DNA of 64,000 bases from an uncultured Nitrospiraceae bacterium (GTDB taxonomy: Bacteria > Nitrospirota > Thermodesulfovibrionia > Thermodesulfovibrionales > SM23-35), in assembly GCA_937138415.1 (NCBI GenBank), contig CAKZPA010000003.1:23897-87896 (forward strand). The letters are read 5' to 3'. The translations under genes were made by a program, and so were the position numbers. The notes below the pieces were generated by a model that ran no database searches, was not told where the DNA came from, and saw only the letters and a program-made list of their open reading frames with translations. Below are positions 39,462 through 41,787 of the stretch, in pieces. Position 1 is the first letter of the stretch; every line of letters starts with the position of its first letter.

Positions 39462-39914
39462 GTGGATGAGACGGATATTTTCTACATGCGCGCTGCGCTT
39501 TCAGAAGCGGAGGCAGCGTACGCGGAGGGCGAAGTGCCCGTGGGCGCGATCTTGGTCAGCGGCGGTCGCGTCATTGCGAGGGCCCACAACGTCAAGGAGG
39601 CATCGGGAGATCCGACTGGCCACGCGGAACTCCTCGCCCTGAGAGCCGGCGCACGAGAGATCGGCAACTGGAGACTCTCGGATGCGACATTGTACGCGAC
39701 GAAGGAACCATGTATCATGTGTGCGGGAGCGATGGTGAATGCCCGGTTGGGGAAGCTCGTCTACGGCTGCAACGATGAAAAAGGAGGAGCCGTTGAGAGC
39801 CTCTACGCGTTGCTTTCGGATCGGAGGCTCAACCACCAAGTAGTGGTCGTATCTGGAATTCTCGAGGACGAATGCGCCGAGATACTGAAAAGATTTTTCC
39901 GCGAGAAAAGATAG
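39462..39914 (+). CDS. tadA: tRNA-specific adenosine deaminase
   Basis: GHAELLALRAGAREIGNWRLSDATLYATKEPCIMCAGAMVNARLGKLVYGCNDEKGGAVESLY; GTG start. Confidence 0.93.
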   Translation: MDETDIFYMRAALSEAEAAYAEGEVPVGAILVSGGRVIARAHNVKEASGDPTGHAELLALRAGAREIGNWRLSDATLYATKEPCIMCAGAMVNARLGKLVYGCNDEKGGAVESLYALLSDRRLNHQVVVVSGILEDECAEILKRFFREKR

Positions 39915-39920
39915 AGACGT

Positions 39921-40313
39921 TTGTTTAGGACCGAGTTATTCGAATTGAGGATGTATCCGTGGAGAGGTGCCAGAGTGGTTGAATGGGACGGTCTCGCTCG
40001 CCCCGGCGAGTCCGCCCGAGGCGGAAAAATCGTTGTGGGGGCTAAAGAGGGAGACGCCGATAAAGGGTTCACGTACGTACTCTGTTGTCACGATCGGAAA
40101 TGGTATATCGGTTCGACGAGAAATTTACAGAAGAGACTCGAAGCCCACAGAATGGGGCGCGTCAAAACGACGAAGCACCGCAGACCGGTTCGGTTGCTGT
40201 ATAGCGAAGAACATGGGAGCTTCCATGAAGCTCGCCGACGGGAGCTCTTCCTCAAGAGTGGAACGGGAAGAGATTGGCTTAAACAAATAGTGGAGAGGTG
40301 CCAGAGTGGTTGA
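39921..40313 (+). CDS. GIY-YIG nuclease-domain ORF, copy 1 (core domain starts near 40062)
   Basis: FTYVLCCHDRKWYIGSTRNLQKRLEAH...RRRELFLKSGTGRDWLK; upstream part reads through tRNA-derived DNA, so the true start is unclear. Confidence 0.7.
   Translation: MFRTELFELRMYPWRGARVVEWDGLARPGESARGGKIVVGAKEGDADKGFTYVLCCHDRKWYIGSTRNLQKRLEAHRMGRVKTTKHRRPVRLLYSEEHGSFHEARRRELFLKSGTGRDWLKQIVERCQSG
39961..40291 (+). mobile_element. 331-bp tRNA-Ser/GIY-YIG unit, copy 1
   Basis: 5' 36 nt of tRNA-Ser + 29-bp double hairpin + 17 nt of tRNA + GIY-YIG ORF; followed by an identical copy. Confidence 0.75.
39997..40025. repeat. 29-bp double hairpin, copy 1
   Basis: CTCGCC-CC-GGCGAG + TCCGCC-CGA-GGCGGA. Confidence 0.85.
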
Positions 40314-40622
40314 ATGGGACGGTCTCGCTCGCCCCGGCGAGTCCGCCCGAGGCGGAAAAATCGTTGTGGGGGCTAAAGAGGGAGACGCCGATAAAGGGTT
40401 CACGTACGTACTCTGTTGTCACGATCGGAAATGGTATATCGGTTCGACGAGAAATTTACAGAAGAGACTCGAAGCCCACAGAATGGGGCGCGTCAAAACG
40501 ACGAAGCACCGCAGACCGGTTCGGTTGCTGTATAGCGAAGAACATGGGAGCTTCCATGAAGCTCGCCGACGGGAGCTCTTCCTCAAGAGTGGAACGGGAA
40601 GAGATTGGCTTAAACAAATAGT
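40292..40622 (+). mobile_element. 331-bp tRNA-Ser/GIY-YIG unit, copy 2
   Basis: Same order and same encoded protein as copy 1; exact 331-nt offset of all landmarks. Confidence 0.75.
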
Positions 40623-40644
40623 GGAGAGGTGCCAGAGTGGTTGA
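40306..40644 (+). CDS. GIY-YIG nuclease-domain ORF, copy 2
   Basis: Translation identical to copy 1 over the shared region; ends VERCQSG, i.e. inside the 5' end of the next tRNA copy. Confidence 0.7.
   Translation: MVEWDGLARPGESARGGKIVVGAKEGDADKGFTYVLCCHDRKWYIGSTRNLQKRLEAHRMGRVKTTKHRRPVRLLYSEEHGSFHEARRRELFLKSGTGRDWLKQIVERCQSG
40328..40356. repeat. 29-bp double hairpin, copy 2
   Basis: Same sequence as 39997-40025. Confidence 0.85.
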
Positions 40645-40712
40645 ATGGGACGGTCTCGAAAATCGTTGTGGGGGCAACTCCACCCAGGGTTCGAATCCCT
40701 GCCTCTCCGCCA
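40623..40712 (+). tRNA. tRNA-Ser (anticodon CGA), complete with CCA
   Basis: Acceptor GGAGAGG/CCTCTCC, anticodon arm ACGGT-CTCGAAA-ATCGT, long variable arm, T-arm CAGGGTTCGAATCCCTG, GCCA. Confidence 0.9.
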
Positions 40713-40740
40713 CCTACTCGTCAATAGCGTCTCATCTCGT

Positions 40741-40835
40741 GGGATGGTCTCGCTCGCCCCGGCGAGTCCGCCCGAGGCGGAAAAATCGTTGTGGGGGCAA
40801 CTCCACCCAGGGTTCGAATCCCTGCCTCTCCGCCA
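40741..40835 (+). pseudogene. tRNA-Ser 3' fragment carrying the 29-bp hairpin insertion
   Basis: gggatggtctcg + hairpin + aaaatcgttgtgggggcaactccacccagggttcgaatccctgcctctccgcca; no 5' acceptor/D-arm. Confidence 0.8.
40753..40781. repeat. 29-bp double hairpin, copy 3
   Basis: Same sequence as 39997-40025. Confidence 0.85.
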
Positions 40836-40890
40836 CCTAATGCAGAACCAGTCTTTTCAACCTGCCCGCTGCTTCGTTCGCGAGGAAATC

Positions 40891-41787
40891 ATGCCGCCAG
40901 CGGGGAAGGAGACGATCCACATCCTGCTCATTCTGGATTGCCGTGAAGACTGCTGCCTCATGGAAGGAATGCTCCAGGATTCCGCGGGCATTCATTTCGA
41001 AATCGAGACAGTCCACTCCCTGACCGAAGGAACCGCCCGCCTCGCGGAGAAGGCCTTTCACGTCGTCATCCTCGATCTCGGCCTTCCCGAGAGCAGCGGC
41101 ATAGAGTCTCTCAAAAAGATTCTCGGGCACACACTCGAAGTCCCGATCGTCGTCCTCACCGGGCACGATGACGATGAACTCGGCGTTGCGGCGATCAAAG
41201 AAGGCGCACAGGACTATCTCTCGAAGGCGCAGCTCGATCGGAACACGCTCCTGCGTTCCATACGTTATTCGATCGAACGTCATCGGCTGCTGGCGGAGCT
41301 GCATCGTCAGTCTCTCGAGGATTACCTGACCGGCCTCAATAACAGGCGGGGCTTCTTTCTCCTCGCGCAGCAGCACGCGAAACTCGCAAAGCGGATGAAG
41401 CGTGCGCTGTTGATCATGATCGCAGACCTCGACGGCATGAAGAAGATCAACGATACCTTCGGCCATGAAGCGGGCGACAGGGCGCTGGTCGAAATAGCGA
41501 CCGTGCTGAAGAATACTTTTCGCGACGCGGATATCACCGCGAGAATCGGCGGCGATGAGTTCGCGGTGTGCATCATCGATGACGACACCTCCACGGCGGA
41601 TGTCGTCATCGCCCGACTGAACGACAACATACGTTCGGCCAATACCCGCGCGAAGCTACCTTATCGACTCTCGCTCAGCGTGGGCGTGGCCCGATTCGGT
41701 CCGGACGCCGAGACCACGTTCGACGAGATGCTCGCGCAGGCGGACGCTCTCATGTACGAAGAGAAGCGAAGCAAACGGCACGCGTGA
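40891..41787 (+). CDS. Response regulator with GGDEF diguanylate cyclase domain
   Basis: REC-like (VVILDLGLPESSGIESLKKI, VVLTGHDDDELG), DYLTGLNNRRGF, ARIGGDEFAVCI; start uncertain. Confidence 0.9.
   Translation: MPPAGKETIHILLILDCREDCCLMEGMLQDSAGIHFEIETVHSLTEGTARLAEKAFHVVILDLGLPESSGIESLKKILGHTLEVPIVVLTGHDDDELGVAAIKEGAQDYLSKAQLDRNTLLRSIRYSIERHRLLAELHRQSLEDYLTGLNNRRGFFLLAQQHAKLAKRMKRALLIMIADLDGMKKINDTFGHEAGDRALVEIATVLKNTFRDADITARIGGDEFAVCIIDDDTSTADVVIARLNDNIRSANTRAKLPYRLSLSVGVARFGPDAETTFDEMLAQADALMYEEKRSKRHA

Follow-up and report, generated by a model that had tools for sequence, protein, structure and literature searches.

SegB is a free-standing GIY-YIG homing endonuclease of T-even phages whose gene lies beside that of tRNA-Tyr in T6, where it drives tandem amplification of the tRNA together with the nuclease. 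These amplifications involve homology between the 5' end of the tRNA and the 3' end of segB, segB is enriched near tRNAs in phages, and free-standing GIY-YIG enzymes are reportedly poor cutters of their own allele (PMC13096335). Islander islands, which encode tyrosine integrases, resemble the element described here in that the tRNA gene they enter is split and then made whole again with sequence from the island, while a displaced piece stays behind (PMC4383910). A split target that has been restored and a displaced fragment left behind, as in such tRNA-targeting islands, are both seen in our material. We interpret the locus as a minimal homing-type mobile element that parasitises tRNA genes, inserting in the anticodon arm and rebuilding the tRNA; we assign this reading a probability of roughly 0.7, with cleavage by the nuclease as the step that we infer.

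The array at the tadA/tRNA-Ser(CGA) locus

The window, the whole 64,000-nucleotide stretch analysed, comes from a 2.11-Mb assembly of 57 contigs, and all of its features given here lie on the + strand. Downstream of tadA (39462..39914), the conserved upstream neighbour of tRNA-Ser(CGA) and our handle in the search for empty sites, the first unit opens with a 5' fragment of tRNA-Ser(CGA), nt 1-36 (39961..39996), that matches the intact tRNA exactly. It continues with a 29-nt double hairpin placed at nt 36|37, inside the anticodon (39997..40025; exact matching, with compensatory changes in relatives), 17 nt of tRNA-Ser corresponding to nt 37-53 (40026..40042; exact matching) and a GIY-YIG nuclease gene (40062..40313, catalytic domain 40062-40289), assigned by Pfam PF01541, its ORF, alignment and a structural model with a pLDDT of 93.8. 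Exact matching places the same parts in the second unit, namely tRNA-Ser nt 1-36 (40292..40327), the 29-nt double hairpin (40328..40356) and the 17 nt of nt 37-53 (40357..40373), followed by an identical nuclease gene (40393..40644; TRF, ORF and exact matching) whose stop codon lies within the intact tRNA gene. The two 331-bp units with matching landmarks that the first-pass annotation had described, and the order of parts it gave them, are right to the base: 39961-40291 and 40292-40622 are identical by exact matching, and TRF reports a period of 331 with 100% matches over 39959-40658. Both nuclease frames end in ...VERCQSG*, with the 5' end of the following tRNA copy supplying the last residues and the stop, a feature that the annotation had also pointed out and that the ORF list bears out in both units.

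The intact tRNA-Ser(CGA) occupies 40623..40712 (ARAGORN; Rfam RF00005, 53.8 bits), with its nt 1-36 at 40623-40658 by exact matching, and is the sole CGA gene found in whole-genome searches. Behind it lies a right-hand remnant (40741-40835) composed of 12 nt, GGGATGGTCTCG, from the 5' side of the split anticodon arm (40741..40752; exact matching, and the same in L120 and L200), the 29-nt double hairpin (40753..40781; exact matching) and a tRNA-Ser 3' fragment, nt 37-90 (40782..40835), that matches the intact tRNA exactly. The annotation was correct that the array ends in an intact tRNA-Ser followed by a 3' fragment, but it missed the hairpin and the 12 nt GGGATGGTCTCG of that fragment, because of which hairpins stand at both outer edges of the array. 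The double hairpin, CTCGCCCCGGCGAG TCCGCCCGAGGCGGA (29 nt), splits the anticodon C35-G36-A37 between nt 36 and 37, and the intact copy lacks it.

Empty sites and related loci

Empty sites, which the annotation had proposed to look for in relatives, were found at two loci. The tadA/tRNA-Ser(CGA) locus carries neither nuclease nor element-type fragments in 25 relatives; the few partial matches near these empty loci are at a distance of about 600 bp or more and appear to belong to other tRNA-Ser genes. For leuB/tRNA-Asn, one genus offers both states, empty in G001 and filled in G015. When the empty locus of G007 is compared with the filled one of G002, the upstream sequence and the whole tRNA align, and behind the right remnant the alignment picks up again at tRNA nt 35 and runs on through 74 bp of the native flank downstream, which places the insertion at nt 34|35, inside the anticodon, with the old 3' half displaced downstream. 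Filled and empty alleles at one locus and a patchy distribution are thus both seen. Comparison shows that the element lies within the tRNA gene already present at the site, which it divides in the anticodon arm; both outer parts of that gene persist as dead, hairpin-tagged remnants, and one complete tRNA gene lies inside the element.

The window genome holds another GIY-YIG gene at leuB, after tRNA-Asn and between 5' and 3' pieces of tRNA-Asn, in which the hairpin TCCCGCCCCCGGCGGGA stands in place of nt 25-34; a sixth GIY-YIG match of this genome, in a 689-aa frame, is probably UvrC. In G008, one unit sits in tRNA-Ser(TGA), again split at nt 36|37, here by the hairpin TTCGCCTCGGCGAATCCGCCTGGGGCGGA, and the tRNA-Ser(CGA) of that genome has neither nuclease nor fragments. 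G101 (L120) carries a mirror form, with the intact tRNA, the nuclease, and then nt 26-36, the hairpin and nt 37-90, and the Planctomycetota contig L200 carries a single unit in the complete window-type form, with a left remnant, the nuclease, the intact tRNA and a right remnant in that order. The earlier proposal of an element that moves into the tRNA gene and rebuilds a working copy is supported by these loci; the distal position it gave to the intact copy applies to the window but not generally, the copy being on the proximal edge in many relatives. The split or the hairpin also occurs outside the anticodon arm, in the D loop (L056, L116), in the T arm (several Leu) and at nt 22|23 (Arg).

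To gauge the association between nuclease and tRNA, we listed all small GIY-YIG matches in 121 Thermodesulfovibrionales genomes, minus the tRNA-linked ones of the window genome, fetched the loci blind to context and called tRNAs with ARAGORN under a 300-bp limit. An intact tRNA lies within 300 bp of 26 of the 113 small GIY-YIG genes (all actually within 162 bp; the count omits L165, added by hand, and L122, a dubious Phe call), compared with about 2 of 113 expected from 43 tRNAs in 2.11 Mb, and nuclease and tRNA share a strand in all 26. The rest of the ±4 kb around all loci of the order holds about ten other tRNAs. One locus, L081, has tRNA fragments alone, without an intact tRNA, because the contig ends there. 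In other phyla, a sample of 18 genomes that is biased, each having been chosen because it carries a relative of the window nuclease, gave a tRNA within 300 bp at 36 of 75 GIY-YIG loci, on the same strand in 36/36 and of many isotypes, and 28 had partial tRNA copies. The tie of GIY-YIG genes to tRNA boundaries suggested by the first-pass annotation is therefore strong and recurrent in relatives (26/113 in the order, 36/75 in other phyla), and the element family is real, recurrent, widespread and not peculiar to one assembly.

Partial copies of the adjoining tRNA are present in 40 of the 43 tRNA-linked loci. Among 77 control tRNA genes (those of the window genome plus the tRNA-Ser loci of relatives), two have such copies, exactly the two with a nuclease neighbour; of the 86 nuclease loci that lack an intact tRNA, one has fragments, and it lies at a contig edge. 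Identity is 98.0% between the fragments and their own tRNA versus 80.3% between the fragments and the same isotype elsewhere, a difference partly biased by the choice of fragments for similarity to their own tRNA. Intact copies show no visible difference from the tRNAs of empty sites. In L120 the intact copy looks native and the remnant does not, and so either which copy is old varies or gene conversion blurs it.

Several further loci bear on tRNA pieces or on small GIY-YIG genes. A 67-bp tandem array in G079 (L117, 2367-2670; 4.6 copies, 90% identical) consists of hairpin-tagged tRNA-Ala 3' pieces in repeats without a nuclease. Between a native leuB and a native promoter plus tRNA, G017 (L345, 1235-1450) has a left remnant of tRNA-Asn with no nuclease; around the start of the remnant, 104 bp align end to end with G002 and piecewise with G007 of the same genus, suggesting a horizontally acquired relic. 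At the tadA/tRNA-Ser locus of Bacterium BMS3Bbin08 (L235), a 23-residue nuclease match directly 5' of tRNA-Ser(CGA) is apparently a decayed copy. Two further small GIY-YIG genes of the window genome, in L001 (1390-2000) and L002 (1180-1990), have no tRNA nearby and are surrounded by palindromic repeats of a dispersed kind (GTCATTCCGG..CCGGAATCCAG; TCCTTCGACAAGCTCAGGATGAC), perhaps a second association of nuclease and palindrome. In G114, a TCCTTCGAC..TCAGGA repeat and a GIY-YIG gene come after tRNA-Ser(GCT) and again after tRNA-Asn (L062, L135), and both loci close with a second palindromic repeat and a small 3' piece of tRNA; the L062 nuclease has a stop, and both nucleases fall outside the main tRNA clade, so that we do not count these loci as the same kind of element, and they may be of separate origin or due to chance. 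Finally, the 2.5-Mb genome G036 has 19 GIY-YIG matches, several near-identical and, where fetched, without a nearby tRNA, possibly another proliferating small nuclease.

Nuclease, hairpins and proposed mechanism

The window nuclease matches Pfam GIY-YIG at E = 1.9e-14. At about 80 residues, the tRNA-linked nuclease is barely more than the catalytic domain, and the domain has no recognisable DNA-binding part. The catalytic Tyr, Tyr, Arg and Glu are invariant in the alignment of Ser-type nucleases, in keeping with the annotation's view that the active-site motifs are retained, and dN/dS values of 0.08-0.18 in three nuclease pairs indicate purifying selection (other pairs were saturated, and L300 copies 2 vs 3 were left out as out of frame). 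By sequence and fold the closest proteins are of the UPF0213 type, with weak fold matches also to Slx1 and the I-TevI domain, and the nearest named relatives come from Nitrospirota, one being labelled Thermodesulfovibrionales. Searches of phages and plasmids found no close phage relative but three weak phage and two weak plasmid matches of <60% identity, one annotated yazA, on which grounds we set aside a phage or plasmid origin, although viral carriers may exist; one of six Ser-type nucleases matches PHROG 314 'homing endonuclease' (E 4.5e-5). A defence system was likewise discarded, PADLOC having given no match.

In trees built from 118 and 154 sequences, the tRNA-linked nucleases group together and are faithful to an isotype, and most other small GIY-YIG genes of the order lie apart from them. 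Isotype changes on the tree number 11, versus a shuffle mean of 27.8 and minimum of 24. The Ser and Asp clades (support 98 and 95) both span several families, and Asn and Ala are almost supported, in a short alignment of about 92 columns that leaves many forks open. Judged from these sequences, the nuclease phylogeny follows tRNA isotype across host families and phyla, and the clade of the window nuclease is shown by this comparison to have its members at tRNA genes and to be faithful to one isotype.

The 29-nt hairpin has three copies with at most 3 mismatches in the 2.11-Mb genome, all at the window array, which rules it out as a dispersed repeat of the genome; the hairpin at tRNA-Asn, of a simpler TCCCGC..GCGGGA type, does show mild dispersal (20 sites vs 2 for the reversed control). 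Of 34 different split-point inserts, 24 fold better than shuffles. Among six sequences of the Ser double hairpin, two base pairs have changed on both sides and 98.4% of cells are paired, vs at most 56% when slid, a pattern that suggests, though with six sequences it does not prove, that the structure is under selection. The element carries the double hairpin as an inherited component and not by accident.

We propose that the GIY-YIG nuclease would break the DNA of its own tRNA gene at the anticodon arm, that repair would copy the element in with the tRNA halves at its edges as homology, and that the rebuilt tRNA would render the insertion harmless for the host. Tandems such as the 2 x 331 bp of the window could then arise when the rebuilt tRNA is broken again or when its halves cross over unequally with the remnants. 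For the split-point hairpin we considered protection of remnants, silencing of tRNA-like transcripts and a recognition signal for the nuclease; it probably prevents remnants from being cut again or from acting as tRNA, which is the least certain step. The main difficulty of the homing reading is self-cutting: hairpins break up the site in the outer remnants, yet the element's own intact tRNA retains it uninterrupted and looks like a perfect target, which leaves the donor allele with no evident classical immunity. Tandem arrays would be the expected trace of occasional self-cutting or of plain unequal crossing-over. We class the element as a homing-type variant because it behaves like one, also in the genomic tests.

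How much of this could reflect the assembly, or local duplication? That the window array is an assembly artefact, as 57 contigs and units of 100% identity might suggest, is scarcely credible given the same architecture in independent genomes: in G013, an independent MAG (L081/L033), the tadA locus holds a tandem cut off by the contig end; the tRNA-Asn of G072 has a tandem with a 335-bp unit; and the single unit of G008 shows every part without a repeat. The 335-bp unit repeated in L118 starts exactly at tRNA-Asn nt 35. On the 366,884-bp contig of a Bacteroidia genome (L300), six left remnants in series with a 95-bp unit are followed by one intact tRNA-Ala and three nuclease plus right-remnant units of 357 bp, whose nuclease copies are 94% identical; repeats diverged by about 6% rule out assembly error for arrays in general, and such tandems contradict the artefact that the annotation had named as a risk. 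Since the window units are identical, the window array alone could be explained as a simple recent duplication, and one chance landing of a GIY-YIG gene beside a tRNA followed by unequal crossing-over, without any targeting, would be favoured by the 36-nt direct repeats between remnant and intact tRNA. Set against the many isotypes, the several phyla, the strand fidelity, the same split point for the hairpin and clades that track isotype, this account is largely refuted for the family, for which we give it next to no chance; as a mechanism of array growth alone it is possible.

The nuclease might also be kept as a host- or phage-style module that amplifies the tRNA gene under tRNA attack, with mobility secondary. 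The many loci with tandem arrays and the behaviour of SegB in T6 (PMC13096335) speak for this; however, L300 has six left remnants and three nuclease units for one tRNA, the arrays thus multiplying nuclease and broken remnants rather than intact tRNA, with no rise in tRNA dose, and the module is absent from most relatives, which makes it very improbable. A less remote alternative, though one we still consider unlikely, holds that the nuclease recognises hairpins or cruciforms (tRNA arms, palindromes) instead of sequence and that the split-point hairpins are the working ends of a structure-directed element akin to IS200/IS605. It draws on the branched-DNA nuclease Slx1 among the fold neighbours, on hairpins at nearly every split point that mostly fold better than shuffles (24/34) and are always there though their position varies, on the compensatory changes in the double hairpin, and on related tRNA-free nucleases amid palindromic repeats, whereas the isotype fidelity of the clades suggests a protein that reads sequence. 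Returning to the minimal homing-type element, we tentatively extend it, as a doubtful but conceivable generalisation, to a pan-bacterial class in which a GIY-YIG protein of catalytic-domain size with hairpin-tagged remnants would be targeted by folded tRNA-gene DNA (a cruciform or single-stranded cloverleaf) or by a guide transcript of tRNA plus hairpin, rather than by a DNA-binding domain.

Comparison with known systems

Among open PubMed Central papers our searches brought up SegB and the tRNA islands but no account of bacterial elements of this sort, and by this measure the family is apparently undescribed. If our reading is true, bacterial chromosomes of several phyla would harbour one of the smallest self-contained mobile elements known, one that is aimed at tRNA genes, does no harm because it rebuilds its target in the DNA itself, and has neither intron nor integrase. 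Such an element would also account for many tRNA fragments and small GIY-YIG genes annotated as unrelated, and 80-residue nucleases sorted by tRNA isotype would offer a direct test of how a tiny protein finds its target.

To our knowledge, UPF0213 / YazA-type stand-alone GIY-YIG proteins have no known tRNA association. They provide the nearest solved relatives in both sequence and fold (PDB 1zg2, 1ywl). Short palindromes mark the edges of REP/RAYT and IS200/IS605 elements, as they do here. Those systems rely on a Y1 transposase, whereas the window element has a GIY-YIG gene and a tRNA-gene target; Pfam shows GIY-YIG only in the 331-bp unit, where no Y1 (HUH) transposase was found. Group I introns in tRNA genes sit in the anticodon loop. 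They share insertion in tRNA genes and, in some cases, a homing endonuclease (PMC3984707), but the window tRNA is restored in DNA and not via splicing, and a group I intron was rejected, with no Rfam intron match in the window nor in 39900-40900 at E ≤ 1. Islander islands differ in having an integrase and being far larger, compared with about 330 bp and a GIY-YIG gene alone, and the window element leaves both halves, with hairpins at the split (PMC4383910). The 331-bp unit fits the GIY-YIG frame alone, the sole frame matching a family, and contains no tyrosine or serine integrase.

By analogy, phage SegB appears to be the closest precedent. SegB is phage-borne, whereas the window nuclease is chromosomal with little beyond a catalytic domain; split tRNA halves, hairpin tags and a rebuilt tRNA are not described for SegB in the available part of PMC13096335, nor is an isotype preference reported there, whereas clades of the window family keep to one isotype. 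Both have a GIY-YIG gene adjoining tRNA genes; in both, tRNA and nuclease are repeated together in tandem, the 5' end of the tRNA shares microhomology with the 3' end of the nuclease, and transfer has linked distant hosts (PMC13096335).
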